Positions 10,735-33,998 of a DNA stretch of 36,011 nt are shown in pieces. How positions within the stretch are numbered: the first letter of the stretch is position 1; each line of letters opens with the position of its first letter. Under the pieces are notes generated by a model that did no database searches, was not told the origin of the DNA, and saw only the letters and a list, made by a program, of their open reading frames with translations. The DNA comes from a virus: positions 1 through 36,011 of the IMG/VR virus record IMGVR_UViG_3300042549_006415; one strand, 5' to 3'. The position numbers were made by a program, and so were the translations under genes.

Positions 10735-11292
10735 ATGAAATTTAAACAACTCGTATCCAGAATTACCAAACTCGTTGAAAATGCGGGTGAACACACCTTT
10801 GGTGGTGGTCTTTATATAGGTGACCCACAAGGCAAAGTTGGTCAATCTCCCCTCACAGACAAGGGAACCTTCAACCTAGCCCTCCCAAGGCAGATAGACG
10901 CTATTAACGCTATGTTGTACACCTTCTCCTCCAGAGACTACATCAATCCAGATGCTATTATGGGTGTTGTACAACAAAAATTGAATTTGGTTGGACTAGA
11001 CTTTGCAGCCCCAAAAATGCAAATTCCAGATGGTGTTAGCACCTTTGAACTCGTTCAATACGGTAGCCCACAATTGGGTGTATATGGTCAAAATCCATAC
11101 GATGATGTAAACAAGGCTGGGTTCAAGCAAGGTGACGGTATCAAAGAAAAAATTGGTCATTCTTTGGCTCTTCAAGTTACTGTAACCATGCAACCAAACC
11201 ATCTGCGTAAAGTTAGTCTGGTAATCGTTCCAACAGCAACTTCTTCATATAATATGGAACTAGATCAAAATGATTGCGGCTGCAAACACTGA
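10735..11292 (+). CDS. Probable virion protein, unknown family
   Basis: 185 residues. It starts MKFKQLVSRITKLVENAGEH, a Lys/Phe leader with an L-V-E junction similar to T4 capsid-targeting signals. The body contains GLYIGDPQGKVGQSPLTDK and an amphipathic, beta-rich region with many Pro/Gly turns; the C-terminus ends in NDCGCKH. Codon use is visibly richer in C and G at third positions (runs such as ctcccaaggcagatagacgc) than in the flanking disordered genes, which can mark high expression. Good RBS (GAGGACAACC before ATG). I do not recognise the family; a structural role is inferred from position, promoter and composition. Confidence 0.65.
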   Translation: MKFKQLVSRITKLVENAGEHTFGGGLYIGDPQGKVGQSPLTDKGTFNLALPRQIDAINAMLYTFSSRDYINPDAIMGVVQQKLNLVGLDFAAPKMQIPDGVSTFELVQYGSPQLGVYGQNPYDDVNKAGFKQGDGIKEKIGHSLALQVTVTMQPNHLRKVSLVIVPTATSSYNMELDQNDCGCKH

Positions 11293-11299
11293 GATAATA

Positions 11300-11698
11300 A
11301 TGGTTGATAAAAATACTCCCCTGACAGAAGAACTATTTCTCGAATTCTGTCAGGGCTGTTATTTCAACAGTGAATGCACAGGTAAAGCCGAGTTCATGGA
11401 TGACTTGAAGAGAATCAAATATGTAAAAAGACTTTTACAAAAGATTCACAAACATAAAACTTTAAAGTCAATACGTGAACGACTTATAATAAATCATATA
11501 ATAATTTTAAGAAATGTGTTTGGCGAAGAAAATGCCATACGCATTTTGTTTTTTAAAGTTGAACCAAGACTATATTCGTATTTAAAATCATTCACTGTAT
11601 TCTTAAATTTTAATATTAAAAATTTACCAGAAGTAAAATATTCAGAATTGAATACTGACCCAAGAGTAGATAGAAAATTACTACAGGTTGAAAAATGA
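11300..11698 (+). CDS. Conserved phage protein with N-terminal Cys motif
   Basis: About 132 residues from the ATG at 11300; an in-frame ATG at 11270 lies inside the preceding gene and is less likely. The N-terminus has FCQGCYFNSEC, a compact C-x2-C-x5-C that may bind metal, followed by RIKYVKRLLQKI and a long helical region (ERLIINHIIILRNVFGEENAIRILFFK) and a C-terminal LKSFTVFLNF. This pattern resembles a conserved hypothetical protein of T4-like aquatic phages; I know no function for it. The end overlaps the next gene at ATGA, so translation is coupled. Real gene, unknown job. Confidence 0.65.
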   Translation: MVDKNTPLTEELFLEFCQGCYFNSECTGKAEFMDDLKRIKYVKRLLQKIHKHKTLKSIRERLIINHIIILRNVFGEENAIRILFFKVEPRLYSYLKSFTVFLNFNIKNLPEVKYSELNTDPRVDRKLLQVEK

Positions 11699-13419
11699 AT
11701 ACACCACAATACATTCCATCATTTTATTTTTATAAATTTGCTCAAGGAATCTCTGCACCATATACAGAATTAGCTGCATATAGTGCTGGTGCCATTGATT
11801 CAAGTGGTAATATATTAAAGGCAGAAAGTAGTATCGATTCATTTGAATATCTGATTATTAAATTAAAGAAGATCTTTGAACAGCTACCTGCTGGATTGAC
11901 TAAAGCACAATTAACAAATTACCTTAGTACTCTTCAGTTGTTTAGTGAGGCGGTTCAAGCCTATGACATTAGTGATGCTCAATTTGCAGGATTGGTTGAA
12001 GGCTATATCGCTCTTAATAAAAATCCAAACACCAGTTATATTGCACTGTGCGAAGATATGGGTGTCGGTGGTGGAGGTGGTGGTGCTGGGACTATTGGTA
12101 CACCTGTGGTATCCAACAATCAGGGTGGTGTTGGTGGTTTTGATCCTGTTATGGCTCCAATGCAGAGACGAAAACCACCAGTAGGTCTAGACAACTGTGA
12201 AATGTTTGATGTCTGCCCAGAAGAAATGGGACAGTTTAAATTAGCTAAAGCCTGGAAACATCTTCCAGCTAGTGAAACCAAAACATATTTACAAAGATAT
12301 CAAGCTAGAAATCCAAAAGGAAAAATAGCTCTTCGTTCTGTAGATCCAGATACTGGTAAACAAGATATTCATTGGGTTGATTATTCTAAACAAAGTTTTG
12401 CTGAAGAATTTAAATTAAATTTTTTAGATATTTTGAATGAAAGTCTTGTCAAGGATTATACGGACTCTGCGAAGGATGATGAAATAAACGTGGCAACAAG
12501 AACAAATGATCGGGAAATTAAGCCTCTAGAAATAAGCGGAAAAGAATTACAAACTACCGCTGAAATAGTAAGACAAAAATATGAAGATGAAAAGCAAAAA
12601 GAAGACGAGAAGAAGAAGCAGCCTTATCTAAAAGCTGGGTCTGCAGAAAAATATGCAGCAGGAACTGAGTTAGAAAAAAGTATTCCAACTGCACTTGAGC
12701 TAATGAAAAGATTGGGAAATCAAGGAGCAGAAATTGCTCAAAGATGGCATGGCCAATTCAGACACTCAGCAGAAAAACCAATATCAACACACGAACCGGA
12801 TTACTACGGTTTAGGAAATTTAGAGGGGTTAGAAGATTTAGAAAATCCTGAAGATCTTATTAAAGTTTTTGATGCAAAAAATATAAAAGCCAGAGGACAA
12901 GTAAATATAGATCCATCAGAGTTTTTTAAAGATACACAAGTTGGTGGTCTTAAGGGATTCCCAACTGTTTCTGGAACACCGGCCCATATAGCAAGAGAAT
13001 TGGCAACAGAAGCCGGTGACACAAGCGAAGCTGAAAGAATAAAATCTAAAATTCTTGATCCGTTTTATTCAGACCCCGGAGCTCAAGAGCAACTTCGAAC
13101 CCATTACATGAGCCAAACCTTTCCACAAAATGATAAAATGTCATTAAGATTGGCAACAAAAAAAGGAAGAGAGTTAATTCCAATAGGCGTTGCGGATGCT
13201 GAAACAATCTTAAGAAAAGGAATCTCTGTAAGAACAACTAGGGGCGGCAAACAACCAGTAGAAAAATCACAATTAGGAATAAAGTCTAGGAGTGATTTTG
13301 GTATTATTGCTGTTGGAAAAGATAATCCTCTCCAGACATTGCCTAGAGAGGATCAATCTAATTTGGAAAGATTGTCGCCAGAACTAAAAAGATTTAGTTC
13401 TTGGTTAAGAACAACTTAA
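11695..13419 (+). CDS. Large hypothetical protein with Gly-rich hinge
   Basis: 574 residues. Residues 1-120 are a hydrophobic helical domain (YIPSFYFYKFAQGISAPY at the start) followed by a glycine hinge (GVGGGGGGAG near residue 123-132). The middle contains PKGKIALRSVDPDTGKQDIHWVDYS, a Lys/Glu-rich coiled segment (~residues 285-315), and a C-terminal region with HIARELATEAGDTSEAERIKSK and ESLVKDYTDSAKDDE. No catalytic motif is recognised. It is coupled to the preceding gene (ATGA), has AGGTT as a possible RBS, and ends in a TTAA shared with the convergent gene. Given its late-gene neighbours it may be virion-associated. Unknown function. Confidence 0.6.
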   Translation: MNTPQYIPSFYFYKFAQGISAPYTELAAYSAGAIDSSGNILKAESSIDSFEYLIIKLKKIFEQLPAGLTKAQLTNYLSTLQLFSEAVQAYDISDAQFAGLVEGYIALNKNPNTSYIALCEDMGVGGGGGGAGTIGTPVVSNNQGGVGGFDPVMAPMQRRKPPVGLDNCEMFDVCPEEMGQFKLAKAWKHLPASETKTYLQRYQARNPKGKIALRSVDPDTGKQDIHWVDYSKQSFAEEFKLNFLDILNESLVKDYTDSAKDDEINVATRTNDREIKPLEISGKELQTTAEIVRQKYEDEKQKEDEKKKQPYLKAGSAEKYAAGTELEKSIPTALELMKRLGNQGAEIAQRWHGQFRHSAEKPISTHEPDYYGLGNLEGLEDLENPEDLIKVFDAKNIKARGQVNIDPSEFFKDTQVGGLKGFPTVSGTPAHIARELATEAGDTSEAERIKSKILDPFYSDPGAQEQLRTHYMSQTFPQNDKMSLRLATKKGRELIPIGVADAETILRKGISVRTTRGGKQPVEKSQLGIKSRSDFGIIAVGKDNPLQTLPREDQSNLERLSPELKRFSSWLRTT

Positions 13420-15025: not shown

Positions 15026-15108
15026 TGCAAGAGGAGGGATTCGAACCTTCGTAGAAATTAATCATCACATTTACAGTGTGACCTCGTTGACCGCTTGAGT
15101 ACTCTTGC
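15026..15108 (-). tRNA. tRNA-Tyr (anticodon GTA)
   Basis: Reverse-strand cloverleaf: acceptor GCAAGAG pairs with CTCTTGC, the D arm is CTC/GAG, the anticodon stem TCACA/TGTGA encloses CTGTAAA (anticodon GTA), a long variable arm is present as expected for class II tRNA-Tyr, and the T loop is TTCGAAT. There is one mismatch in the T stem. Discriminator A; CCA is not encoded. It lies between two minus-strand promoters and just downstream of a 44-residue gene, so it may be co-transcribed with it. The nearby giant proteins are visibly Tyr-rich, which may explain its retention (inference). Confidence 0.9.
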
Positions 15109-15254: not shown

Positions 15255-15282
15255 AGTATAGCATATAGAACTTTTGTGTCAA
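15255..15282 (-). promoter_or_regulatory. Sigma70-type promoter TTGACA-N16-TATACT
   Basis: Consensus TTGACA (15282-15277), a 16-nt spacer ending in TGC (extended -10) and TATACT (15260-15255) on the minus strand. Six bases before the ATG at 15248. Its -35 abuts the divergent late box at 15283-15289. Confidence 0.8.
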
Positions 15283-15289
15283 CTAAATA
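15283..15289 (+). promoter_or_regulatory. Late promoter box CTAAATA, spacing 5 to ATG
   Basis: CTAAATA-N5-ATG (15295): predicted +1 is the A of the start codon. It directly abuts the -35 of the divergent early-type promoter. Confidence 0.55.
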
Positions 15290-15294
15290 ATAAT

Positions 15295-15945
15295 ATGAAG
15301 AACAAAGGTTATTACGGTTGGATTCATTCCTTAAACGAAGCTGGTATGCAAGCCCATAAAAAGGGTATTGAGATGCTTGCAGAACAACATACACGTAAAG
15401 GTGAAATGCTCAATGAAGCTAAAAAGCCTAATCGTAGCCCCGAAGGAATGGCTGCAAAAAAAGCTCGTGAAACTGCAGATACCGCAAAGCGGCGTGAAAA
15501 TAGAGAAGCTGCTGCTAAAGCGGCTGCTAATGCGGCACGTTCTGGTGAAGGCGAACTAAGTGATTTTGACTTTAGTGGATTTCAAGATAGAGTTGCAGAA
15601 GTTAGAGCTGAAAAACAAGCTGCTGGTAGTGGTGTTCAACGTGTAGAAACTGGGTTTCATGGAGCCAATGATGTTGATGATTCATATGACCCAACAGATC
15701 CAGATTCAGGTACAGAAGAAATTAGTAGACTTCCAGATTATGGTATGGATGCTGAAAGAGCAATAACTTCAAAAACAAGTATTCCTGCAGGAAATGCTAA
15801 TGCTGTTGCAATGGATGCATCAGACTATGTAATGGGTGATGAAGAAGAACCAGAAGATGAAGGAAAATACGAACTTCCTAGCAAAAACTGGAAAACGTTC
15901 AAGGAATCAGTATCACAAAAGATTTCTAGAATGTTAAGAAATTAA
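15295..15945 (+). CDS. Hypothetical protein with capsid-targeting-like leader
   Basis: 216 residues from ATG 15295 (an upstream TTG at 15274 is unlikely as it precedes the promoter). The N-terminus MKNKGYYGWIHSLNEAGM ends in an L-N-E/A junction; further L-x-E sites follow (EMLAEQ, GEMLNEAKKP). Residues ~45-85 are an Ala/Lys/Arg-rich helix; the rest is acidic and low complexity (DSYDPTDPDSGTEEIS, GDEEEPEDEGKYE), and it ends in NWKTFKESVSQKISRMLRN. This acidic, multiply cuttable composition recalls T4 internal or scaffold proteins that are processed by the prohead protease, but no homology is recognised. Confidence 0.6.
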   Translation: MKNKGYYGWIHSLNEAGMQAHKKGIEMLAEQHTRKGEMLNEAKKPNRSPEGMAAKKARETADTAKRRENREAAAKAAANAARSGEGELSDFDFSGFQDRVAEVRAEKQAAGSGVQRVETGFHGANDVDDSYDPTDPDSGTEEISRLPDYGMDAERAITSKTSIPAGNANAVAMDASDYVMGDEEEPEDEGKYELPSKNWKTFKESVSQKISRMLRN

Positions 15946-17099: not shown

Positions 17100-17107
17100 T
17101 ATAAATA
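17100..17107 (+). promoter_or_regulatory. Perfect late promoter TATAAATA for the giant gene
   Basis: TATAAATA with predicted +1 near 17113 and a 25-nt leader to the ATG at 17138. It shares base 17107 with the -10 of the opposing early-type promoter. Confidence 0.65.
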
Positions 17108-17137: not shown

Positions 17138-20100
17138 ATGCATCCATTTTTACTCAACACTAGTATTACTTACACAGTTCTGATGCCAACCCAATTGTTT
17201 GGTATTATTGAAAATCCTGTGGTTGGCTATTGGAGACAAGGTGAAACATGGGGCAATCAAGCTGGTCTGACCTATATGTGGCATTATGTTAAGTTCCCTA
17301 CTGGTATGCTTGGGCCAAAGGGTGCATGTTTAGATGCAGGTCAATATCCGAGAGCAGATGGGACAAACACACCTCCAAGCGTTGCAGAATGGCCTGCAAT
17401 TGGGGATCAGAAAATGGCTGATATTAATTGGTCTTTAAGTCCATGGAATACATCAACTGGTTATATTGGAATGACATTTGGTTCTCCTGGTTTTGTAACA
17501 AAAGCAGATATTGATGATATCATACGCAACTATTCTCATATTCCAAATAAATATAGAACATTTTATCCACCAAGATCATGGAGAGCTTTAGATGGAATTG
17601 GTGGTGGTGTAATAGGTGTTACTGGAACAGAATTTGTTACTATCGATACTGTGGGTGGTACACAAACTTATCGTACTCATTGGTTAAAACGTAAAATAAA
17701 TTTTCTTAGCACTGAATTAAATGCTGTATACAGATATATGGGTTTGTCTGGATTTACGTGTTCTGCTTTTGATATAGATGACGAATATTATAATTTTCCG
17801 GGCCCCGGTGATATGAGAGGCATAGGTACTATTGGATTACGTGATTCTGTTACTAATGGCGGCATTAGTTTTATGAGTAATTTAGTATATCCAGCAAATT
17901 CTGAAACAAGTTCCAGTTGGTATGCAAATTTTAATGGAATATGTGCTACTCCAAATTCATTAATATCGCAAGGAATTACATCCAATAGAGCTTTTCTTTT
18001 AATAAGAGGATTTACTACTGGTCGTAATCCAAATTGGAGACGTGTTGATGGTATGACGGCTCTTGGAAATTGTTCTGCTTCAGGAAATATTGCTTTAGGG
18101 GGAACTCCACTTGATGGGTGGTTTGGACAAGAATACTTTAGTTCGTGGAAAGATTGGGTTGGATATTTTATTACAGATCTTACTACAGATTTTAAACAAA
18201 TAACTGGAATTTGTGCAGACAATTCTTTATCTGCTGCATATGACTATTTTAAGTCAAATGCTGAAATACATGATTATTCTAATCCAACACCAATTAGTCC
18301 AGCAAATGCTCCAACAATTTTAACAAAATCAGCTTCTGATTATGTTCCGTTTACTAGTACACCGATTCTTCGAGACTTAAATGTACTAAATTACTATTCA
18401 TATAATGACCGTGCAAATAGTTTAGGTGGTGTATATACTGTTAATAGTTCAGTTGGTGGTGATATTTCTAGTATTCCACTATATGGTCAGGCCGAGGTTG
18501 ATGTTTGGGCTAATGCTGAATACCTAATTGATAGGACATTAGATCAAAGAGGAAATAGTTATGGATTTGCCTTTGGTGGAAACACATTTGGTAAAGTTCT
18601 TGTTTCGGCATATGATTATTATATTGGTTTAAATACTAAATTTAGTGTTTCAAATCCTTCTTTATGGAATCAAAGTGATGCTCGTAAATGGTTACCGGCA
18701 AACTATCTTGATACACCTTCTCCTGGTCAGTTGGTAACATGTTTTACATGTGCTGAAACTCTTGGTAATTGTGGATTCTTTAAATTTGATCCAACGGGTA
18801 TTAATGGGTCAAGTGCAGCAAATCAAAGTAAAGTTGGATTTGACCGAACACCATCATATATTGGTTGGCATTTTAATCCAGTATGGGGAATTAATGTTCA
18901 AACTTTTAATGGTGGTGCTACAATAGGCCCAGTAAATTATATTCCAATAAGAGGATTGGATATATTGAATGGTTTAACACTTGGTAAAGAATCAAAAAGA
19001 AAGCTGGGCAGTGGTCTAACTTGGAGTACATTAAGTGGTTCATTAGATCCATGTGGTAATCCAGTTCCAGGTAATACCTTACCAGCTGGCACAATTTATA
19101 ATAACTATTGGACACATTGGTATCCAGTAGCATATATGTCTCTTCTCGAACAAGTAAAAATAGGAAGACATGTTGCTAAAGTAAATGTTGCTGATGCAGT
19201 AAATCAAAGAACTGATCCAATAAAATATCCAGGAATAACTGGTTCTATATGGACAAAAATCCAAAAACCAATTCAAGTATGGATTAGTACTCAAAAATAT
19301 TTTACTAATGGTAGTGATGTATTTGATAATACCCCATTTGCTAATTACGTGTATATTCCACAAGGAATAACATTTAATTATACTTTAACAACATCGATGG
19401 CAACTGGTACTACATACGTCTACGGTGATATGGGACCAATGTATTATGAAAATATGAGACACCAATATTTAAATAAAGTTGGTAAGTTTGCATATTATAA
19501 TCCACCAGACCATTATACCACTACCTCGATTTCAAATACTCCACCATATTTTACACAAAGTGGTCGTTTTCCAAGATATTATCCTGAAAATAATACTCAA
19601 AATCCACCAAGAGTTGGTGGTATAACATCATTTGGTGTTTGTGGTGCCATGATGCTTTCCGATGTTAAAAAAGTTAATACTGTGATTGATGAATGCAATA
19701 CTGTTGGTAATGGTACTGTTAAAGAAACATTATATCTTGCTCCAGTAAATATGGATGAGAGATCATATTTGATATCTGGTGCACAAACAGTAAATACTCA
19801 GTTTCTTTGGCGTATTACATTTGCACACCCAGCAACAAATCCTGCACCCATTATAGTTCGTGGTATGTGCTCTGGTATTACTACAGCATACAATATTAGT
19901 GGAGTAACCGATTACATCAATAATCCAAATAATAAATTTGGTATATGGTGGAATAGTGGAATTGTAGAAATTCCAATTGTTGAAAATCCACCAATCCCTG
20001 AAGCACAAAGACTTAATACATTAAGTCTTCCAGAAAATCCAAAGTTCATGTTCAATGCAGAAACTACTGCTGAATCTAGAAACGTTGTTCCTAAAAATTA

Positions 20101-23100
20101 TGTAAACCCAGATCTTTTCTGCACACTTGGTTCACCATATGGTTTTTGGAGACAAGCAGAGCGTTGGGGAAGTCAAAATGGTTTGACATATATGTGGCCC
20201 AATGTAGAATTTATTCGTGGAAATAGCGGACCAAGTCAAACTCAATTAAATGCAGGAATATTTCCAACATTCCCAACATCATCTACTATAACAACTGAAG
20301 GATGGACTGGTGTTGGAAATAATGCTAACCCTAATATTGATATTGATATGAATCAAGCTCCGTGGAATACTGCAACAGGATATATTGGATTAACCTTTGG
20401 TGCACCTGGTTTTTATACTAAGGATGGATTAGATAGAATAATTCGAGACTATAGTTGGATTCCAAACAAATATAGAGTTGTTATGGCAAGTAGATGGTGG
20501 AGAGCAGAATCCAACAGTCCAATAGCAGATACTGAAGTTGTTGCGTTGGGTGGTAATCGTATAGGTACTACTGCCTTTAAGACTCCATGGTTAAAACGTA
20601 AAATGAATTTCTTACGTGCAGAGCAAAAAGCAATATATTCATATATGGCTGGTAAGGGCTTTACCATGTCACATTATGATTTAGATGATGAAATATATGG
20701 TTATCTAGACTATCGTGGTATTGGTGTATCGGGATCAACTTTTATAAATGGAGTAACTGTTGCAAACCGTATTGGTGATCTTAATTTTTATCTAAAATGG
20801 CTTTATCCTAGTAATGGACCAACTGGATCTAAATGGTATTCAAACTTTTATGGTGCATGTGCTGCTCCAGATTGTTTTATTACTCGTGGTATTACTTCCA
20901 TGCGAGCACATCTTTTGGCAAAGGGATTTACAACTAATACTTCAAATTGGAGATACGTTGAAGGTTTGACTGCAATAGGTGGATCTATTGATAATGTGCC
21001 CGGCAATCTTGCGGGTGATGGATCATTTGAAATTTTGGGATATGAACATCAGGCTGCAATTAAAGATTGGTATGCTGGTCACTGGACTGATATGGTAAAT
21101 GATTTTAAATTATATAATGGAATAACTGCAGATAATTCATTATCAGGTGATTATGGGTATTACAAATTAAATAATGCAGTAATTAATTTTACAAATCCAT
21201 CTTATACAAATAATTTTTATGTAAATAATACTAAAGATCATATTAGTGATGCATTAAATCGTACTAGTACTGATTATGTTCCATTTGTTACTAATAATAT
21301 TACATCAGCATCTGATAAAAGAATGCAAGATTATTATCAGTATAATGATGCATTTAGTTTAGACTCATGTCAAAATGTATATACAGAACAAGTTGGTGAT
21401 ATTGGAGTAATACATGCCTACGGTGGTAATCAAGCAGATATTGATCCAGCTAGCAATGCTGCAAGAATTATTGATAGAAATTTAGATTGGAGAGGTAATA
21501 CATACGGATTAGTAATTAATGGTATTACATATGGTAAAAATGTTGGTGGTTGGTACTCCTCTTGGGGAGCAATGAGGAGAAAATATGGAGATAATGCTCC
21601 AGAAGCAAGTACAGCATTTGCTAAAAAATGGGTACCAGCAAATTGGCTAGGAAACACTACCAATGCTCAAATAATTCAGTGTTACTCCTGTGCTGAAATA
21701 ATGGGAAGTACTGGGTTCTTTCAATATGATCCTACAGGAGTTAGTTCTAGTGCTGCAAGTATAACTAAAGTTGGTTTTGATAGAGCACCACATTATGTTT
21801 CATGGCATTTAAATCCAGTATGGGGAATTAATGTTAATAGATTCGCCTCTGGTCAGGTTTCAGGTCCAGCAAATTATATACCACTATATGGACCGGATAC
21901 ATTAAATGGATTATCATTTGGAGGCAAGACCAAATATTGGACAGGAACAAATACTACTTTTTCAGTTGATAGAATAGATCCATGTGGTAATCCATTCCCA
22001 GCAAATCCGTTACCTGCTGGAACAATTTATAATCACTATTGGACTAACTGGTATCCAATGGGATATATGGCATTGATGACAGACATTAAGTGGGGAAGAC
22101 AAGTAGCCAAGTCAAATGTAGCCAAAGCAATTTATGAAAGAAATGATCCAATAAATCATCCAAAGATACCCGGAAGTAATTGGTATGGAATACAAAAACC
22201 AATTAATACATGGGTTGCCCATCAAAGATGGACTACTGATGGTGAGCTAGACATCAGTAAGGAGGCGAACTCAAATTTGAATTCTTATTATATTCCTGAA
22301 GGATTAACATTTGGATATCGTACTGTAGTAGGTCAAGAAAGTTCATTATTAGCCGGTTTCACATTCATGTATGGTGAAGCAGGACCAATGTATTATGAAA
22401 ATATACGTCACCAGTATTTAAATAAAACTGGAAGATATTCATATTGGAATCCTAGCACATATGATATGACTTCTTCAGATGGTACACCATTATCATATAT
22501 GAATGAATCGGCATGTTTTGGTGGAAGAAGATACACTCAAGCACAAACATCTCCACAAAAAATTGGTGGTCTCACATGTATGGGTATATGTGGTGCTATT
22601 AAGATTGCACTAGCAAGAAAAATTAATAATGTTATTGGAGAATGTCAGACTATTGGTAATGGTACTGTATGGGAAACAACATATCTTGCTCCAATGAATA
22701 TGGATGATCGATCATATGTGATCTCAGGTGCACAAAAGGTTGATGGTAACTATGTTTGGCGTATTACTTTTGCTCATCCAGCAACACAATCACCAATTAT
22801 TGTAAGAGGATCTGTTAGTGGTATTACAACCGCGTATCATGTAAATGGTATTACAAATTATATTGATTCTCCAAATAATAAATTTGGTATATGGTGGACT
22901 ACAGACCGTTATGAAATTCCTGTAGTTGAAAATCCTCCAGTATCAGAAGCAGAAAGATTAGGAGTTCTTAATCTTCCTGGAGCATCGGCGTTTAGTTATA
23001 ACCCGTTAACAATGACACAGGCTGTGGAAGCTTTTAATGGTATTGAAATTGTTACTGATATTGTTAATCTATCTTTTAATGCTACAGATAGAGCCAAAAC

Positions 23101-26100
23101 AATTCCACCGATGTTGGCTAACAATATTAAGTATGGTCAAGTAATATATGAGCAAGAGGTATCTGCATCCATTGGTGCAGACTTTACAGTAAATAAAGCA
23201 TCATATCAAAATCTATTAAGAGCTTCTCTTAATCAATTTTATGGCAATACAACAGATAAAAATTACTTTGGTATAGACCCATATCATTTTGTTCTTGATT
23301 ATGAAGGTAATATGACCAATTATATTGGTGGAGATGTGGATCCAATTGCTGGCTCATCATGTGCTAAAGCAATTAATATGCTTAATAATTTATTAGTTTA
23401 TACAAAAGAAGTTTCTCCTAATTCTATAATATATCAATATAACTGCCCCTCAATGCCATATTACTTTGCATTTACTCCTGGTAATGCGTGTACATGGGCT
23501 GGAAAATCAAATGCAGTTTCACTTTTCCAATATGAAGCTGAAAAAACTAGATTAAAGAAACAACAGAAAAGTAAAATAGCACTATTTAAAGCTAACACAG
23601 ATCGTGTAGATATGGAAGCATATCCAAAATATACAGATGCATTTAAATTTGCAAAGGATACTGATGCAGCTTCGTCACAACTTATATATAATAATACTTT
23701 AAGTGCTAGTCAAGAATTATTAAACAATTATCCAAAAACAATACCAACACAAATCTTTGGTAGCTTTACTGTAGCTGACGGTAGTGAATATGTATTAACT
23801 GGAACAGCTAGTAACGCAATAACAGGATATACTGGACTACAAAATTATCAATCACTGGTAAGCTTTACTCCTCATTTAGGAACATATACTCTTAAACCAG
23901 CAACTGATGCTGGTGTTAAGAAAATGTTTATATGGTACCCATTACAATATTTTATTAATATTTCTAAATTTGCAGCAGGAAATTGTTGGGGAGTATTGCC
24001 TGGTAATTTTGATGTACCTGGTGCATACATTTACCAAGCCAGAAAAGTATTTAATGATCTTTTGTTAGATACACAAACTATAGCATATGCAATTCCAGAA
24101 ATATCAGGTATTTCAAAATTTGCATATCGATATGCACTACCTTTAAATGATGATGGTATTTGGGCTGGAACAAAGAGTGTAACACCTAGTAATATAGATC
24201 CTGGTGGAAGATTTGTAAATGTACAGAATCTAGCACTTCAAGCCGGAATATCTAAAACAGTTCAAATGGCGAGATTGTTTAAGTCTTATGCCGGAGATAG
24301 TGGACCACTGACAGAAGATTGTGCAACTGTTATTGCAAGAGGTACAACATATATTCAAGGGCTTACTGCATATACTGGAAATCTATCTTATATTCCATAT
24401 GATCCAGATATATTTACATCAACTGATGCTGACATTGTATCTTTACTGTCTGGTGCAGCAAATAATTATTTACCAAAATTACCGGACGGTCACACGGCGG
24501 CAAGATATACCAGAGTCTATACAAATGCTGATGTTCCGGCTTATAATAGATATCCCAGTACTACAAAACCTTTAGGGCATTTATCTGATTGCAGTAATCC
24601 AATGATTACACAAATTGCTGCATTAACTGGTACTGACACAATTATAGGAGATTACCTTCGTTCAAAGGGATTTAATCTTGCATTTGGTTGGAAAATTGGT
24701 AACACAAGAGTTGCTGATGGACGGTTAATATCTCCTGGTACTGCAGGCAGTCAAGCAACTGCATTAGCTACTGCAAATGCTATTTTAACTGAAGTTTCTA
24801 CTCACGTTCCATTTGAAAGATATGGTTGGACTATTAGTGAATGTGAATTTAGAGGATACACTGACGGCTATCAAGGGTTTGACCCATTAAATGATGGAAA
24901 ATATCTAGGAACTGCATGGTATATTACTGGTGTAATTTCTATGATGGAGGCATTGGGTACTGCTGGTATGACAACTGGTCTAGAAACTAAATTAAGAGGA
25001 ATAATGGAGGGTGAAGTATATGGTTTAGTTGCCAATTGGAAAGAAAAATATGGATGGTATACTAAAGGACAGTTTGCAGGAATGCCTGTTGGCTCAGGAC
25101 AGCCAAATACAAATCAATGGATTGAACCTGCTGCTTCTTTAATCAATCTTACTTTATATCTTGGTGATAAGAAGTTTTTACCAGCATATAATCTTGGAGT
25201 TGCACTCTTAGCCGAATCATTCAACTATGAAAATGCTGATGGTTCTTTTTTAGAAGGATTTGGTTACGCTCAACAATCTGTTAGTCCTATGATTAACACG
25301 GTTAATTATACTAATGCAATTGGTGATTCGCGTTTAAGTGGTAGCGGATTTTTACAAAATTATTGGCAGTGGGCACAGGATAATATGTTACCCGGAAATC
25401 ATATTATTAATTGTTCGGATAATAGAGGCAGTCAACCCCCAAATTATGTTACGTTTTATTATTGGCCTTCTATTATTGACGGTGCTTTAACGGCAGGAGC
25501 TACGGCATTAGCAAATATCAAATATCTGTATCCACCTACACTTGATCGGCTTTTAGATGGTGAACAAGCTATTAGATATGTTGCTGCTACTAAAGGTATT
25601 ACTGCGGCATTAACTATGCCAAATTATAAATTTTATTCAAATCAACAAATGACAATTTGGAGAACTGGAAGAGACAGACCTTCAGCAATTGGAAATCCGT
25701 ATAATGCTATTGATACGGGTACATTTGGTAATACTGCTACTCCCCATTATGCTATCTGGGCAAAGGGATCATCAATTAAAGAAGGACATAAGCATACTGA
25801 TCAAGGTCAAATAAGTGTTTATCAAGGATATAAAGTTATTCTTATGGATTGTGGTATTGATTATGATGAATCAAATCCAAATTTATTACCTGGTATTAAT
25901 ATAGATATGTTACAACAGGCTACTGGTCATAATATGATGCAGGTTGATGCTGTAGATAAGAGTGTTCCAGTAAATGCCCCAATGACAATGACTACACTTG
26001 GTGCAACTGGTGGCAATATTACTATTAATGGAACATGTGCATATACCAATATAAACAACTGCACAAGAAATATCATATGGAATGCAAATGGTTTCAATAA

Positions 26101-26575
26101 TCCACTAACAGTAAAAATTTCTGATACCTTTAATAAAACAACTGGAGTCTCGGCAGGAAGAGAAGTTTATAGATTCCACACAGGAAATACAAATGGAATG
26201 TCTATAACGGGAAGCGGAACTTCATGGACTGCTTCATGGGATAATGTTACAATGGGATTCACCAGTAATTTTGGTATTAATATAGTACAAACAGATTTTA
26301 ATGATTTTACACAGTTAGTTGCAAGTAATATTCAAGGAACAATTGCTGCTACTAGAGTTCATAAAATGCTTAATATAAGTACCAATTCTACTATAACTGC
26401 AGGCGTTACATTCAGCTTAACTACAACAATGGTCGTTGAACCAACGATGCCAATCAATGCATTTGCATGGCAATGGCCAAACCCATGGGTTTGGTCTGGT
26501 AATGATTGGGTTAAGTCAGATAATACCAAAAACTTAATTGCCTTTAGCCAGGATTTGGGTACACAATCTATATAA
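17138..26575 (+). CDS. Giant modular carbohydrate-active/adhesin protein with heparinase II/III-like domain
   Basis: 3145 residues. Residues ~17-990 and ~990-1960 are two diverged copies of one ~970-residue module (e.g. GxTYMWxxVxF, WNTxTGYIGxTFGxPGF, IPNKYR, WLKRKxNFL, NPVWGIN, FGIWW). Each holds D-x-DDE (D212-E216; D1181-E1185) and GPMYYEN with E771 or E1754, which look like active-site acids of a glycosidase-type barrel (inference). Residues ~1965-2440 carry another barrel-like segment with VLDYEG (near 2052). Residues ~2450-2800 resemble an alpha/alpha toroid (NQWIEPAASLINL, N2659) and ~2800-3130 a beta-sandwich with GHKHTDQGQ (H2884-G2890), together a heparinase II/III or alginate-lyase-like polysaccharide lyase. 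No signal peptide, no collagen-like stretch. Most likely a huge tail fibre or virion depolymerase. The start has no strong Shine-Dalgarno. Confidence 0.75.
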   Translation: MHPFLLNTSITYTVLMPTQLFGIIENPVVGYWRQGETWGNQAGLTYMWHYVKFPTGMLGPKGACLDAGQYPRADGTNTPPSVAEWPAIGDQKMADINWSLSPWNTSTGYIGMTFGSPGFVTKADIDDIIRNYSHIPNKYRTFYPPRSWRALDGIGGGVIGVTGTEFVTIDTVGGTQTYRTHWLKRKINFLSTELNAVYRYMGLSGFTCSAFDIDDEYYNFPGPGDMRGIGTIGLRDSVTNGGISFMSNLVYPANSETSSSWYANFNGICATPNSLISQGITSNRAFLLIRGFTTGRNPNWRRVDGMTALGNCSASGNIALGGTPLDGWFGQEYFSSWKDWVGYFITDLTTDFKQITGICADNSLSAAYDYFKSNAEIHDYSNPTPISPANAPTILTKSASDYVPFTSTPILRDLNVLNYYSYNDRANSLGGVYTVNSSVGGDISSIPLYGQAEVDVWANAEYLIDRTLDQRGNSYGFAFGGNTFGKVLVSAYDYYIGLNTKFSVSNPSLWNQSDARKWLPANYLDTPSPGQLVTCFTCAETLGNCGFFKFDPTGINGSSAANQSKVGFDRTPSYIGWHFNPVWGINVQTFNGGATIGPVNYIPIRGLDILNGLTLGKESKRKLGSGLTWSTLSGSLDPCGNPVPGNTLPAGTIYNNYWTHWYPVAYMSLLEQVKIGRHVAKVNVADAVNQRTDPIKYPGITGSIWTKIQKPIQVWISTQKYFTNGSDVFDNTPFANYVYIPQGITFNYTLTTSMATGTTYVYGDMGPMYYENMRHQYLNKVGKFAYYNPPDHYTTTSISNTPPYFTQSGRFPRYYPENNTQNPPRVGGITSFGVCGAMMLSDVKKVNTVIDECNTVGNGTVKETLYLAPVNMDERSYLISGAQTVNTQFLWRITFAHPATNPAPIIVRGMCSGITTAYNISGVTDYINNPNNKFGIWWNSGIVEIPIVENPPIPEAQRLNTLSLPENPKFMFNAETTAESRNVVPKNYVNPDLFCTLGSPYGFWRQAERWGSQNGLTYMWPNVEFIRGNSGPSQTQLNAGIFPTFPTSSTITTEGWTGVGNNANPNIDIDMNQAPWNTATGYIGLTFGAPGFYTKDGLDRIIRDYSWIPNKYRVVMASRWWRAESNSPIADTEVVALGGNRIGTTAFKTPWLKRKMNFLRAEQKAIYSYMAGKGFTMSHYDLDDEIYGYLDYRGIGVSGSTFINGVTVANRIGDLNFYLKWLYPSNGPTGSKWYSNFYGACAAPDCFITRGITSMRAHLLAKGFTTNTSNWRYVEGLTAIGGSIDNVPGNLAGDGSFEILGYEHQAAIKDWYAGHWTDMVNDFKLYNGITADNSLSGDYGYYKLNNAVINFTNPSYTNNFYVNNTKDHISDALNRTSTDYVPFVTNNITSASDKRMQDYYQYNDAFSLDSCQNVYTEQVGDIGVIHAYGGNQADIDPASNAARIIDRNLDWRGNTYGLVINGITYGKNVGGWYSSWGAMRRKYGDNAPEASTAFAKKWVPANWLGNTTNAQIIQCYSCAEIMGSTGFFQYDPTGVSSSAASITKVGFDRAPHYVSWHLNPVWGINVNRFASGQVSGPANYIPLYGPDTLNGLSFGGKTKYWTGTNTTFSVDRIDPCGNPFPANPLPAGTIYNHYWTNWYPMGYMALMTDIKWGRQVAKSNVAKAIYERNDPINHPKIPGSNWYGIQKPINTWVAHQRWTTDGELDISKEANSNLNSYYIPEGLTFGYRTVVGQESSLLAGFTFMYGEAGPMYYENIRHQYLNKTGRYSYWNPSTYDMTSSDGTPLSYMNESACFGGRRYTQAQTSPQKIGGLTCMGICGAIKIALARKINNVIGECQTIGNGTVWETTYLAPMNMDDRSYVISGAQKVDGNYVWRITFAHPATQSPIIVRGSVSGITTAYHVNGITNYIDSPNNKFGIWWTTDRYEIPVVENPPVSEAERLGVLNLPGASAFSYNPLTMTQAVEAFNGIEIVTDIVNLSFNATDRAKTIPPMLANNIKYGQVIYEQEVSASIGADFTVNKASYQNLLRASLNQFYGNTTDKNYFGIDPYHFVLDYEGNMTNYIGGDVDPIAGSSCAKAINMLNNLLVYTKEVSPNSIIYQYNCPSMPYYFAFTPGNACTWAGKSNAVSLFQYEAEKTRLKKQQKSKIALFKANTDRVDMEAYPKYTDAFKFAKDTDAASSQLIYNNTLSASQELLNNYPKTIPTQIFGSFTVADGSEYVLTGTASNAITGYTGLQNYQSLVSFTPHLGTYTLKPATDAGVKKMFIWYPLQYFINISKFAAGNCWGVLPGNFDVPGAYIYQARKVFNDLLLDTQTIAYAIPEISGISKFAYRYALPLNDDGIWAGTKSVTPSNIDPGGRFVNVQNLALQAGISKTVQMARLFKSYAGDSGPLTEDCATVIARGTTYIQGLTAYTGNLSYIPYDPDIFTSTDADIVSLLSGAANNYLPKLPDGHTAARYTRVYTNADVPAYNRYPSTTKPLGHLSDCSNPMITQIAALTGTDTIIGDYLRSKGFNLAFGWKIGNTRVADGRLISPGTAGSQATALATANAILTEVSTHVPFERYGWTISECEFRGYTDGYQGFDPLNDGKYLGTAWYITGVISMMEALGTAGMTTGLETKLRGIMEGEVYGLVANWKEKYGWYTKGQFAGMPVGSGQPNTNQWIEPAASLINLTLYLGDKKFLPAYNLGVALLAESFNYENADGSFLEGFGYAQQSVSPMINTVNYTNAIGDSRLSGSGFLQNYWQWAQDNMLPGNHIINCSDNRGSQPPNYVTFYYWPSIIDGALTAGATALANIKYLYPPTLDRLLDGEQAIRYVAATKGITAALTMPNYKFYSNQQMTIWRTGRDRPSAIGNPYNAIDTGTFGNTATPHYAIWAKGSSIKEGHKHTDQGQISVYQGYKVILMDCGIDYDESNPNLLPGINIDMLQQATGHNMMQVDAVDKSVPVNAPMTMTTLGATGGNITINGTCAYTNINNCTRNIIWNANGFNNPLTVKISDTFNKTTGVSAGREVYRFHTGNTNGMSITGSGTSWTASWDNVTMGFTSNFGINIVQTDFNDFTQLVASNIQGTIAATRVHKMLNISTNSTITAGVTFSLTTTMVVEPTMPINAFAWQWPNPWVWSGNDWVKSDNTKNLIAFSQDLGTQSI
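17188..23020 (+). repeat. Two ~2.9-kb in-gene repeats (about 970 codons each)
   Basis: Copy 1 about 17188-20107 and copy 2 about 20110-23020. Protein similarity is evident over the whole length (start FWRQ/YWRQ-x-E-x-W-G, end VENPP-x-x-E-A-x-R-L); DNA similarity is patchy, so the duplication is old. Confidence 0.85.
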
Positions 26576-26609
26576 TAATTAATAAGTATTATTAAGGAAT
26601 TTAAAAATT

Positions 26610-29600
26610 ATGGGAACGACTACTTGTTGGATATATCAAAGCATTAAATCAGTTCAATCTGGAATAACTGCACCAGATGGTTCCACAACTGCTTTTGCTT
26701 TTGGTACTATTAATGCTGGTGGTTCTTATGCTTCTATAAGACAAGAACAATACGGATTAAAACCAGGAACAACTTATACTTTTTCTTATTTTAGAAATAT
26801 AACTTTAGGTGTTACTGGTGGTTCTTTTAGATTTAGAAATATAACAGGATCTGTTGCAACTAATGATATTCAACCGGCTATTACGTTTACAGGAACTGGA
26901 TGGCAAAGATATTCACATACTTTTGCAACACAAGCAACACAAACTGCATTAGATTCTTTTATTTTAAGCAGAAATAATTCTGCATCAGAAACTGCTGGAG
27001 TAACAGTATGTTTATGGGGAGCACAATTAGAGGAAGGTTCTACTGCAACCGGATATTCAAGAAGTACCGGCTTTAGAGATTCTCGTGGTGGATGTATTGG
27101 TGCCACAGGTCCAATATATGATTATGATGAGAATAAATGGTTGAATTATGGTGTATCAAATGGAATAGACTATGTTTCTCCATTAGTTAATTTTTATAGA
27201 ATAAGTGGATGGGAAATCGATAATACTTCTGGGTGGACACAAAACTCAGAAATGACTAGAGTAATAAATCAATTAAAATACTTACCTGAATCTAAAAGAT
27301 CATTTCAACCAACATTATTTAATAGAGATGATTGGTTTAAATTAACTGGTGATAAAACTGGTGCGACTGGTGCAGAATCTAGAAAATATTATGGAAATAC
27401 ATATCCATTTACTTCTTCTAATTCTAGTAATTTTTATCCAGGACCATGGAATGATAATGGAATTAGTGCAGGGTTATCTTTTTATAATCAATTATTAAAT
27501 ATTTTATCTGCGTCATCAGTAAAGCTTGATTATGTATTTCTCGACAATGAATCAAATTATGGTCAAAATTTTTCAATTGTTCCTGTTACCGGAGGAACAA
27601 CTGGTTGGTTAAGAGATTCAAGATACACACAAACCTGGAGAGGATTGAGTTCATGGGCATCTCAAATGAGTGCAGCAGGAGTTACAATATCAAAAATTTC
27701 AGGACCAGCTGTTTCTCAATCTAATGATAAAGTAGCGTATCTGGTATGGAATAATATTACTAAACAATATCAAGCAACTGTATTGAATGAAATTGTTTCA
27801 AAACCAACTTTATCACAATATCCAAATTCAATAGTTTCAAATTATGCATATTGGAATTCTGGTACAGGTGCAACAGCCGCTGCTCCAGATGCATTTGGTC
27901 ATCCACAGTATCAGAGTGCATATGTTGGAAATGCCACATCACCTGTTTTATATGGTGAAATTACACAAATTGATGCGAATGTTTCTCCTGGAAATGTAGT
28001 TGTTAATCCTAATGATCCAACATCTTTTATTTTAGCAGTATCTGGTGCAACTGGAGCAACTTTATCAAAAGGACCATGGACAAGTTTTACTATTGCTTTA
28101 CAGGAACTCAGAAATGTAAAAAGAGCATCTCCAAACATTCCAATTACTCCTTGGATAGGATCAGTAAGATACGCAGGAATTCCATTTTATAATGTATCAT
28201 CTTTAGCACCAACAGTTGGTTTTGCTGATATCAATAAAGGGTATAGTTCAGTTATGGGTTATACTACTGGTATGGCTGGTAATTCTGCATATTATTATGA
28301 ATTGGTAAGACATATATGTTTAACTGGTGTTAAAGCTATTGGATATTGGAATAGTTCTTCATTTAGTGTATATGAAGGTGTTACTGAAACGAATGAGAGA
28401 GACTATTTTGCAAAAGGTATAACACAACATGTAAAAGACATTTCTTTATTAAATGAAACATTAAAAGAAGTTAATCTTAATACCGGTGGTTATAAATTAA
28501 ATACAGCATCATCAGATAGAATTAGTTGGTTGGCAAAACAAATTACTAGTGGAACAGCAAAATCGTGGAATAATTATATTTGGCGAACAACAATTAAACC
28601 AGGAACAATATATGAACATACAACAACAGATAATACAAATTCTATTTTAAGTGGTTCGTGTGTTGGTAAATGGTTTAATACTACAACATCAACACCACCA
28701 GATGTAAGACCACTAGAATTAAAAGATGTATTTTATTTTCCTGGAGTTTTTTCTACTGATGGTTCACCGTTTGCACATGGTACGGGAACTCCTTATGCAA
28801 ATTGGTTTGGTACAAATCGTTCAGTTGTTGCTGCATTCCAAGGAGATTTATATACCAGTAATGAGGCAACTACTAAGGTTGTAAATGGACGTGCATATGA
28901 ATTTGAAATGGATCCAGCCAATCCAACCGTTACAAGTCCATGGCACAATGCAATATACGAAAACTGTATAGACCCATATATTTGGGGAGCAAGGAGTTTC
29001 ACATTCTTCCAACCACATGGTCAAATTCCTCAAGTAGCATATCCATTCAATGAAGTAGTACGAAGAGCAGAAGGATACTATAGTAGTACTACTGATGCGT
29101 CTAAATCTCCGGCTCGTTGGAAAGGATTTACATCCGGTGTTCGTGCATTATTAGAAGGAAAATTGAATCCGGCAGGAGCATGTGCTGCAAAAACAGGATT
29201 TACGGCTATTAGTGAACCGTGCAATGTTCATGTATATCTTCCATCAACAAATGGTTATTGGGAAGATAGATTTGGTAATACTGCAGCAGGACCAGCAGGA
29301 GATACATTCTATCCAGGATCACTTGTATTCTGGGATAAGTGTTTTACAAATTCTGGTGGATCTACAACTGCTGCTAATAATTTATATTACGCTTCTGTAA
29401 ACCAATGGCTTACTGAATTTATTAGTATGAAAAGCCCAAGTATAACTGCTGGTGTTTTATCATGTTCTATTGATGCTACTACATGTTCTGCAACTCCAAA
29501 TACTGTAGGATTGTTTGCAACATTGCCAGCATACTATACTAGAGGAAATTCATATGAATTGACAGATTGGTATATTAGTCAAACATTAAGAGCAAATAAT

Positions 29601-30503
29601 ATTCCTGTATATTGTGAAGCAAGACCACAGAAAATATTTAAATTATTAAATTCTGGTATTACTTCTGGAGAAATTTCAAATATTCCTGGATTGTGTGGTG
29701 CTACTGCAATAAGTCAATGGACAAATCATTTGTGTGTTGAATATAATCTTTGGTATACTAGTCCAAATAATCCAGTATTGCCATCACCAGATATTAATTT
29801 TGCAGGAGCAATTCCAGATTCAGAAGTTCCTTCTGTTATGCGATATTCTCAAAATTCTGGACCAATACCAAACGATAGAGATCCTTATCAAATTCCACTA
29901 ATTGTTGCTACTGGTGGTACTTCATACCTATTACCATATGGATTTACATCGTATCTTGATTCACCACAAAGAGCACTATTGGATTTATATAGTGCAAACG
30001 ATGTATATCGTAAATTTAATAATCTAGCAAATACTGGGTTAACATTTAAAGGTGTAGCATATGATTATATGACAAGAGGAATGCTATTTACATCATACGG
30101 TGATTGGGCAAGAGGTTCATGTGGATGTAAAGAAATTAATCCAACTAATAATTCTGGAAGTTTGACTGGATATTATAGACCAGATACCGATAATGCAAGT
30201 GAAGGTAACAGAATTGGATATGGACCAACACAACCAAGAAAATTTGATCGTACAGCTTTTATAGCAAGTACAACAAATTATGCTAACAATGCCCAAGGCC
30301 AATCTGGATATTGGACATCTAGCGGTATCAGTTTCTGGAGAGCTAATGTTAAACAACCAACCTTTAATGGATTCTTGGAGATGTTAAAACAAGTCTCCTT
30401 AACTGGGTGTCCAAAATACGGTAATACTGCAGGGTGGACAGGTGCAACATATCCAAATGATTTCTATGGATTAGGTATATTCCCAAAATCTATGAGACCT
30501 TAA
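26610..30503 (+). CDS. Second giant fibre/glycosidase-like protein with N-terminal CBM-like domain
   Basis: 1297 residues. Residues ~1-150 are a jelly-roll of the carbohydrate-binding type seen on phage fibres and spikes (GTTYTFSYFRN, then WQRYSHTFAT, ending LWGAQLEEGSTATGYSRSTG). Residues ~160-680 are a third, more distant copy of the barrel-like module of the upstream giant: VFLDNESNYG (D312, E314) and YYYELVRHICLTGVKAIGYW (E564) match its D-x-D/E and YYEN-x-RHQYLN-x-x-G segments. Residues ~690-1240 form further hydrolase-like domains (PWHNAIYENCIDPYIWG, then GYWEDRFGN) that I cannot name. AAGGA 11 nt upstream gives a normal ribosome site. It lies 34 nt after the first giant, so both are probably one late transcript and may form a joint appendage. 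Confidence 0.7.
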   Translation: MGTTTCWIYQSIKSVQSGITAPDGSTTAFAFGTINAGGSYASIRQEQYGLKPGTTYTFSYFRNITLGVTGGSFRFRNITGSVATNDIQPAITFTGTGWQRYSHTFATQATQTALDSFILSRNNSASETAGVTVCLWGAQLEEGSTATGYSRSTGFRDSRGGCIGATGPIYDYDENKWLNYGVSNGIDYVSPLVNFYRISGWEIDNTSGWTQNSEMTRVINQLKYLPESKRSFQPTLFNRDDWFKLTGDKTGATGAESRKYYGNTYPFTSSNSSNFYPGPWNDNGISAGLSFYNQLLNILSASSVKLDYVFLDNESNYGQNFSIVPVTGGTTGWLRDSRYTQTWRGLSSWASQMSAAGVTISKISGPAVSQSNDKVAYLVWNNITKQYQATVLNEIVSKPTLSQYPNSIVSNYAYWNSGTGATAAAPDAFGHPQYQSAYVGNATSPVLYGEITQIDANVSPGNVVVNPNDPTSFILAVSGATGATLSKGPWTSFTIALQELRNVKRASPNIPITPWIGSVRYAGIPFYNVSSLAPTVGFADINKGYSSVMGYTTGMAGNSAYYYELVRHICLTGVKAIGYWNSSSFSVYEGVTETNERDYFAKGITQHVKDISLLNETLKEVNLNTGGYKLNTASSDRISWLAKQITSGTAKSWNNYIWRTTIKPGTIYEHTTTDNTNSILSGSCVGKWFNTTTSTPPDVRPLELKDVFYFPGVFSTDGSPFAHGTGTPYANWFGTNRSVVAAFQGDLYTSNEATTKVVNGRAYEFEMDPANPTVTSPWHNAIYENCIDPYIWGARSFTFFQPHGQIPQVAYPFNEVVRRAEGYYSSTTDASKSPARWKGFTSGVRALLEGKLNPAGACAAKTGFTAISEPCNVHVYLPSTNGYWEDRFGNTAAGPAGDTFYPGSLVFWDKCFTNSGGSTTAANNLYYASVNQWLTEFISMKSPSITAGVLSCSIDATTCSATPNTVGLFATLPAYYTRGNSYELTDWYISQTLRANNIPVYCEARPQKIFKLLNSGITSGEISNIPGLCGATAISQWTNHLCVEYNLWYTSPNNPVLPSPDINFAGAIPDSEVPSVMRYSQNSGPIPNDRDPYQIPLIVATGGTSYLLPYGFTSYLDSPQRALLDLYSANDVYRKFNNLANTGLTFKGVAYDYMTRGMLFTSYGDWARGSCGCKEINPTNNSGSLTGYYRPDTDNASEGNRIGYGPTQPRKFDRTAFIASTTNYANNAQGQSGYWTSSGISFWRANVKQPTFNGFLEMLKQVSLTGCPKYGNTAGWTGATYPNDFYGLGIFPKSMRP

Positions 30504-31599: not shown

Positions 31600-32265
31600 A
31601 TGAATTACTTAGAACAATACTACAAAAATTTATGCGAACAACTTCAGTCCCAAATCGACCTTCTAGAGAAGCGATTTGATATTAGTAAATTCAAGAAATC
31701 CAAAAAGGGTGGCAAAAAGGACGAGAAAAAGGATGACAAGAAGTCTGGAAAGAAAGCCGATAAGAAGGCTAATAAAGACTACGATGGCGATGGTGAAGTA
31801 GAGTCATCAAAGGATGAATACTTTGGATCCAAGGATAAGGCTATTAAGAAGTCTATTGCCGATAAAAAGAAAAAGAAGAACCTCAAAGAAGGTAGAGAAA
31901 TTTCTGGTGGTCAATTCACTTATGGTGGATTCCCAAAAATTTTAAATGAAGCATCAAAAGGTCCATCATCTGCAGATATGCTTCAAGATTTTTTAGATAA
32001 TGATAAAGGTGGTGCAGCAGGTGGTTCAATTGATCCAGAAACACATGGTCAAATTGCTCAACATCTTAGCCAATTAATAAAAAAAGGAAGTTTAGATCAA
32101 GCTGATTCTTCGCATGTTGAAGGTCTTAAAGCAGCACATGAACTTTTAGGTGGAGGACCATTAGCTGACCATATTGAAGATGTTTTGGAACGTCTTGGTG
32201 ATCAAGCACATGCACGTGGTGTTCAGTCTGATCAAAATCAAATGTACTTTAGAGGAAACAGATAA
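31600..32265 (+). CDS. Lys-rich protein with MDY-type N-terminal module and YGGFP motif
   Basis: 221 residues. The N-terminus MNYLEQYYKNLCEQLQSQID is the same helical module as in the genes at 3325 and 4669. Residues ~27-100 are extremely Lys/Asp-rich (KKGGKKDEKKDDKKSGKK) and include DYDGDGEVE, which resembles a calcium-binding D-x-D-x-D-x-E loop. Then come NLKEGREISGGQF, TYGGFPKILNEASKG (two L-x-E sites) and a helical, His-containing C-terminal domain. A prohead-processed internal DNA-binding protein would fit a Lys-rich composition, but this is inference. Confidence 0.6.
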   Translation: MNYLEQYYKNLCEQLQSQIDLLEKRFDISKFKKSKKGGKKDEKKDDKKSGKKADKKANKDYDGDGEVESSKDEYFGSKDKAIKKSIADKKKKKNLKEGREISGGQFTYGGFPKILNEASKGPSSADMLQDFLDNDKGGAAGGSIDPETHGQIAQHLSQLIKKGSLDQADSSHVEGLKAAHELLGGGPLADHIEDVLERLGDQAHARGVQSDQNQMYFRGNR

Positions 32266-32343: not shown

Positions 32344-32637
32344 ATGAAACGATTTAAAGAATTTCTAGAAGAATCTGCTGCATGGCAACGCAAAGAAGGC
32401 AAGAATCCCGAAGGTGGATTGAATGCCAAAGGTGTTGCATCATATCGTAAAGAGAATCCTGGTTCTAAATTACAAACAGCAGTTACCACCAAACCATCTA
32501 AACTCAAGCCTGGATCAAAAGCAGCAAAAAGAAGAAAATCTTTTTGTGCAAGAATGGGTGGAATGCCCGGACCAATGAAAGATGAAAAGGGTAGACCAAC
32601 TAGAAAAGCACTATCTTTAAGAAAATGGAATTGCTAA
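32344..32637 (+). CDS. DUF6321-like phage protein with capsid-targeting-like leader
   Basis: 97 residues. The N-terminus MKRFKEFLEESAA closely resembles the T4 capsid-targeting leader MKTYQEFIAE, with a cut expected after L-E-E. The rest (AWQRKEGKNPEGGLNAKGVA, NPGSKLQTAVTT, AAKRRKSFCARMGGM, GRPTRKALSLRKWNC) is a very conserved small basic domain found in many myophages that I believe is catalogued as DUF6321. The basic, single-domain product fits a DNA-associated protein inside the head. The stop overlaps the next start (TAATG). Confidence 0.7.
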   Translation: MKRFKEFLEESAAWQRKEGKNPEGGLNAKGVASYRKENPGSKLQTAVTTKPSKLKPGSKAAKRRKSFCARMGGMPGPMKDEKGRPTRKALSLRKWNC

Positions 32638-33283: not shown

Positions 33284-33301
33284 ATATATTTCCTTAACTA
33301 A

Positions 33302-33996: not shown

Positions 33997-33998
33997 AG

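Follow-up and report, generated by a model that had tools for sequence, protein, structure and literature searches.

A giant open reading frame of a T4-like phage joins duplicated orphan modules to a lyase-like cassette and may begin a split adhesin locus

What is encoded by a phage reading frame of more than three thousand codons, and is such a frame a genuine gene? The question is raised by a linear virus record of 36 kb, whose 36,011 nucleotides are called the window here. A preliminary description of this DNA had singled out a giant protein of 3145 residues in which two modules are fused to further, enzyme-like parts. The frame, which we term g1, is indeed open exactly from 17138 to 26575, and an IMG/VR contig of 135,768 bp (L003; L004 is an identical sequence on a second contig) encodes a homologue of 3079 residues with 80% identity across window residues 1-3102. 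Because this independent contig encodes the same fusion, an assembly error joining unrelated genes, which the preliminary description had named among possible refutations, is ruled out for g1. The contigs are metagenomic, but there is next to no chance that the fusion, or the gene breaks described below, are sequencing or assembly artefacts: the fusion recurs in a contig with only 80% identity, and the same break between g1 and its downstream neighbour g2 is found in three loci whose g2 genes have diverged by 24-37%, each time between a clean stop and start signals. To judge from these divergent relatives, the artefact explanation is already refuted. Further g1 homologues cover the modules at 46-57% identity (L005, L006 and L010), and that of L011 is split. 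The N-terminal features are as follows.

17138..26575, plus strand: g1, open over 3145 codons
17138..20098, plus strand: module M1, g1 residues 1-987 (boundaries from alignment)
20099..23014, plus strand: module M2, g1 residues 988-1959 (from the 14-copy alignment)

M1 and M2 are diverged copies of one module of ~970 residues, as had been proposed, with 48-49% identity; residues 20-953 match the stretch from nucleotide 20114 with an E-value of 3.6e-264. Fourteen copies from seven distinct phages could be aligned. Most phages carry two modules per open reading frame (1966-2137 aa; 3079 aa in L003), and L012 has single modules in two adjacent frames (1247 and 1055 aa), one of which contains a carbohydrate-binding-like domain inserted into the module. 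The clean M1 and M2 clades of a single old duplication were not seen, and the M1 of the window groups with the M2 of L006; therefore module copies have been shuffled, exchanged or replaced. Searches of the modules against Pfam, PHROGs and PDB sequences returned nothing significant, and a scan of 84,980 prokaryote genomes, which needs an exact short peptide pattern, found no relative; relatives do exist in other IMG/VR contigs. On these searches the module is an orphan without a described family. An AlphaFold2 model built from the 14 sequences was poor (mean pLDDT 37.7) and yielded no meaningful or significant fold match in Foldseek. The TIM barrels anticipated in g1 were accordingly not confirmed, the cassette model described below being similarly poor. 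A TIM barrel for the modules is a guess prompted by invariant acidic residues, namely D1183, D1184 and E1185 among the invariant residues of M2 in the 14-copy alignment, and a D-x-E in relatives of g2.

Behind the modules lies a cassette with the following features.

23033..26440, plus strand: exchangeable C-terminal cassette, residues 1966-3101
24224..25582, plus strand: mainly helical, toroid-like part, about residues 2363-2815, predicted from a low-confidence model, carrying N2659 and Y2710
25112..25114, plus strand: N2659 (in TNQW), putative charge neutraliser, invariant in five relatives
25265..25267, plus strand: Y2710 (in EGFGYAQQ), putative acid/base, invariant in five relatives
25754..26437, plus strand: mainly beta part, about residues 2873-3100, a heparinase-type sandwich predicted from a low-confidence model
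25787..25801, plus strand: H2884-x-H2886-x-D2888, putative catalytic His and metal ligands, invariant in five relatives
25847..25849, plus strand: D2904, putative metal ligand 16 residues past D2888, invariant in five relatives

The preliminary description had likened this region to the toroid and beta-sandwich of heparinase II/III or alginate lyases, citing a GHKHTDQGQ motif (residues 2883-2891), and the residue pattern supports a lyase-like C-terminus. The predicted beta part carries H2884, H2886, D2888, D2904, Y2909 and H2931, all of which, together with N2659 and Y2710, are invariant in an alignment of five cassette relatives. The PL35 lyase GAGase II uses Asn192, Tyr246 and His401 for catalysis and binds Mn through His403, Asp405, Asp421 and His457 (PMC12088678). 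The putative catalytic Asn, Tyr and His of the cassette follow in the same order, with spacings of 51 and 174 as against 54 and 155. Similarly, the His/Asp/Asp/His metal-site pattern keeps the GAGase II order, with a spacing of 16 between the two Asp residues in both proteins and a last spacing of 27 in the cassette versus 36 in GAGase II. When the last 945 residues of g1 were shuffled 20,000 times, the pattern HxHxD-x15-D arose by chance in 5 cases.

Profile searches point the same way at lower strength. PF07940 matches at the motif in the window (E 0.001, 25781-25969), in L011 (9e-5) and in L034 (3e-5), and hmmscan of the latter two returned the same family with E about 0.04. The scores of 13.1-17.7 bits do not reach the curated cut-off of 24, and we therefore file the cassette as lyase-like rather than as a member of PF07940. 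As for the fold, the AlphaFold2 model (6 sequences, mean pLDDT 32.7) is poor and places helical segments before beta segments. Foldseek matches of this model are led by PL33 (8r6z, E 1.1e-4) and PL35 (8khv, 3.4e-4), followed by chondroitinase, PL15, heparinase II and PL17, with PL21 also among the leaders; the superpositions have TM values of 0.12-0.25. Because the models are poor, these Foldseek scores come from 3Di and sequence pattern and not from a close superposition. A PDB profile search and an NCBIfam scan of the cassette gave nothing, and a lyase-alignment scan of prokaryote genome contigs, which needs an exact short peptide pattern, found no relative. Profile comparison gave no homology of the cassette to the modules or to g2. 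The His that is typical of alginate lyases beside the catalytic Asn is absent (TNQW). Taken together, residue pattern, profile matches and Foldseek leads support assignment of the cassette as a remote domain of heparinase II/III or alginate-lyase type; we place it in no particular PL family.

A lyase-like fold need not cut. Phage receptor-binding proteins often retain carbohydrate-active folds purely for binding, and the large divergence of the cassette from any known lyase family would suit a domain that only binds, within a protein that is a non-enzymatic adhesin throughout. We consider this unlikely, since every catalytic and metal-site residue is retained without change in relatives of differing architecture, even where identity falls to about 45%.

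Those architectures show what kind of locus this is. The cassette is joined to M1 and M2 in the window and in L003, and in L019 (64%) and L034 (45%) it is preceded not by modules but by a propeller of RCC1 type, recognised by Pfam with E about 3e-31. Conversely, L005 has both modules and no cassette. The RCC1-type protein of L034 opens with MHPILLNSNIS, the same first residues as g1, so that the M1 start MHP[FLI]LLN[TS] is common even to a protein of that type. In L011 the cassette occupies two reading frames, the first closed by a clean stop at about residue 2200 and the second, corresponding to residues 2205-3101, opened by a start of its own; this break falls inside the segment 1965-2440 that had been called barrel-like, for which a barrel was not confirmed. 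Neighbouring genes are common to module-type and RCC1-type loci. With such combinations of cassette, propeller and modules among common neighbours, the g1 locus is a site of domain shuffling, and the cassette, on this comparison, is mobile between architectures.

The cassette does not extend to the end of g1, as the features around the stop codon illustrate.

26453..26569, plus strand: tail of g1, residues 3106-3144 (INAFAWQWPNPWVWSG...NLIAFSQDL), start of a chain continued in g2
26573..26609, plus strand: two stop codons in tandem (TAATAA) and a gap of 34 bases that contains AAGGAA (26594-26599), followed by the ATG of g2
26610..30503, plus strand: g2, an open reading frame of 1297 aa, with a 75% homologue in L005 and shorter relatives in L011, L006 and L010
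26619..27059, plus strand: g2 residues 4-150, the remainder of a phage-type carbohydrate-binding-like (CBM-like) domain that begins with a strand encoded by g1 (HMM; phrog_9884, E 7e-4)
27117..28604, plus strand: barrel-like, module-related region of g2, in which LDYVFLDNE (D-x-E) recurs in distant relatives

In the window, L005 and L011, the ~40 residues preceding g2 read INAFAWQWPN-WVWSG--W--S(D/N)N-KNLI-FSQD, and in L038 and L043 the same chain runs uninterrupted within one reading frame. An HMM of the continuous chain aligns its positions 4-42 with g1 residues 3106-3144 (E 1.8e-17) and its positions 48-311 with g2 residues 4-265 (E 1e-130); the complementary split is also found in L005 and L011, with the interruption at nearly the same residue as in the window. 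L003 has neither g2 nor a g1-type tail. By these profile matches, the last ~40 residues of g1 are not lyase and their chain continues in g2, and the preliminary description, which had run the lyase to residue 3145, needs correction here. Farther along, profile comparison relates a region of g2 to the module, of which it is a shorter version (93.7% probability, E 1.9e-7).

Given a chain that is unbroken in L038 and L043 but stops at nearly one residue in the other three loci, g1 and g2 might be made as a single polypeptide of ~4440 residues by programmed frameshifting or by translational bypassing over the gap, for which T4 gene 60 provides a precedent. We judge such recoding very improbable. 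The window, L005 and L011 all have tandem TAATAA stops, with AAGGA-type sequences ahead of the g2 start; breaks elsewhere overlap as TAATG or TGAAATG, including those of L006 and L010, where the same chain is broken at another place by TAATG; and the frame change varies by junction (0, +1 or +2), with no common take-off or landing codons seen. The tandem stops, the AAGGA-type sequences and the overlapping stop-start codons argue for separate initiation of g1 and g2.

Breaks within domains are also found in more distant relatives, where reading frames end inside Fn3 domains (L043, L047, L048, L049 and L050); the domain split in the window is a carbohydrate-binding-like domain or barrel start. 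For example, the halves of an Fn3 pair in L049 match at E 5e-5 (fn3 1-37) and 0.004 (42-80), and the joined sequence at 3e-11 (1-79); in L043 the halves give no match and 0.025, and the joined sequence 3e-6. In an L049 pair, one frame ends FLIYYRGIT and its partner starts MSSVFFNGNTYTFGATV. Profile matches of this kind show that gene boundaries cut through domains more than once and at varying points, and the halves may reassemble and hold the chain together. More tentatively, long adhesins may be built from several polypeptides joined non-covalently via domains split between neighbouring genes, the half-domain that ends one chain serving as a socket into which different distal enzymes or binders could fit. 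Our literature search, thin in its coverage of subscription journals, found no paper describing phage fibres whose Fn3 domains are naturally split.

The Fn3-break sites lie at L043:5479-6195, L047:11510-12708, L048:3344-5859, L049:8331-8918 and 11535-13393, and L050:8329-8916, and the genes concerned are tightly spaced, with gaps of a few bases or a TAATG overlap. In some loci, one upstream Fn3 half can be followed by more than one frame with a matching half (814 and 864 aa in L043; 282 and 301 aa in L049). In L012 (5887-9627), the CBM-like domain of the g1/g2 junction sits in the middle of a module and so behaves as a mobile insert.

When, and in what phage, is g1 expressed? One further feature bears on this.

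17100..17107, plus strand: TATAAATA, a T4-type late-promoter-like element (exact match), its first base 38 bp before the g1 ATG

The T4 late promoter is TATAAATA, and cyanophages use NATAAATA (PMC2984593). About 5 chance copies of TATAAATA are expected in the window, so it is the fixed position and the conservation that carry weight: the element stands at -38 also in L003, L005 and L034 and at -43 in L019, and a variant, TCTAAATA, lies upstream of the gene in L006, L010 and L011. It is absent ahead of g2, and marks only the first gene of the unit. These placements suggest that g1 is expressed late. The L003 contig encodes a T4-type Gp23 (PF07068, E 2.4e-135) about 53% identical to cyanophage Gp23, and by this marker g1 belongs to a T4-like phage. 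Among 50,697 INPHARED phage records, neither g1 (query ended at residue 2987) nor g2 has a relative; this suggests that no isolate close to the group has been sequenced, and the earlier statement that no described phage fibre has such an architecture holds in this collection.

Genes neighbouring g1 in the window match PHROGs for a RuvC-like resolvase, an HNH endonuclease and an exonuclease, and a neighbouring nucleotidyltransferase-like gene does not lie beside fibre genes in cultured cyanophages. A tail-sheath Pfam search of related contigs gave no match and was uninformative. Elsewhere on the plus strand, five proteins (3325-4662, 10735-11292, 15274-15945, 31600-32265 and 32344-33029) have N-terminal L/I-x-E segments (MKRFKEFLEES, MKSFKQYLREA) reminiscent of the T4 capsid-targeting sequences of internal head proteins. 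The minus strand, opposite to g1, carries three tRNA genes (Tyr, 15026-15108; Gln, 33301-33375; Glu, 33998-34073) and, adjoining tRNA-Gln, a 107-aa protein (33026-33349) that weakly resembles a PHROG of the co-chaperonin GroES (E 4.9e-5). A low-complexity protein at 5857-6861 has tandem PATPA and KPET/KTEP repeats.

We propose, with a probability of roughly 0.6, that g1 is the first gene of a late adhesin for host-surface glycans, of the tail-fibre or depolymerase type, in a T4-like phage, with a lyase cassette and a chain split with g2. Enzyme activity and virion location are the parts of this reading reached by inference. The RCC1-type replacement proteins match a tail-protein PHROG (E 5e-7), and the RCC1 genes of Synechococcus phage S-SRM01 lie next after one whose annotation is tail-fibre subunit. 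This arrangement in S-SRM01 speaks for an adhesin role of the locus. The comparison is based on the RCC1 propeller that S-SRM01, a T4-like phage, encodes next to its tail-fibre gene, and that has counterparts at the g1 locus of L019 and L034; the S-SRM01 proteins differ in having no lyase cassette, and the match is limited to the propeller region at about 30% identity.

The same two observations speak against head decorations or depolymerases that are secreted or act in late lysis, an explanation that we regard as rather improbable. It draws on weak PHROG matches to head or virion structural proteins, and on N-terminal adaptors of some relatives whose LLE[NA] sites resemble the VLLEN that Gp23 of this group has in its N-terminal region, but g1 itself is without an adaptor. 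The adaptor, NYNGLxYxxxxxxxMFVNQxGHxI, occurs at L038:8909, L043:5479, L048:3344, L049:8331 and 11535, and L012:5887 and 9650, often after such a site. Neither a trimerisation motif nor a domain for baseplate attachment could be recognised.

If g1 is an adhesin as proposed, the modules would be carbohydrate-active or carbohydrate-binding barrels, and the cassette would cut a uronate-containing surface polysaccharide by beta-elimination. N2659 would neutralise the carboxylate, H2884 and Y2710 would serve as base and acid, and a metal held by H2886, D2888, D2904 and H2931 would order the active-site loop. g1 and g2 would be co-produced, and their products would associate without a covalent bond by restoring the split domain; the particle would then carry M1, M2, lyase and g2 in series, and swapping of cassettes between phages would change what is bound or cut. 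The multi-enzyme fibre binding or cutting several glycans that was first envisaged is plausible on this model, with active-site residues identifiable only in the lyase part.

Compared with heparinase II/III-type lyases (PL12, PL15, PL17, PL21, PL33, PL35, PL39), the cassette shares the Asn...Tyr...His set, the HxHxD with an Asp 16 residues on, the predicted order of helical and beta parts, the weak PF07940 match at the motif and the leading Foldseek matches. Unlike them, it has no detectable global sequence similarity, falls below the Pfam cut-off, has no His beside the catalytic Asn and resides within a giant phage protein behind a segment of ~240-400 residues. With phage tail-spike depolymerases and tail fibres, the locus has in common modular, exchangeable distal parts, a late gene, and CBM-like and probable glycan-cleaving domains. 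Phage depolymerases are usually of 500-1000 residues with a beta-helix, whereas g1 and g2 comprise 3145 and 1297 residues, with a predicted toroid-type lyase and no INPHARED relative. No paper on a heparinase-type phage fibre was found in a literature search that covered subscription journals thinly.

Within a giant phage adhesin, a polysaccharide lyase of the toroid type would add to the depolymerase toolkit known from phages, and the cassette provides a testable enzyme. Moreover, the recurrent gene breaks inside single domains suggest a natural split-domain joint for swapping the tips of phage adhesins. If true, this would be a new assembly principle, useful for protein engineering.
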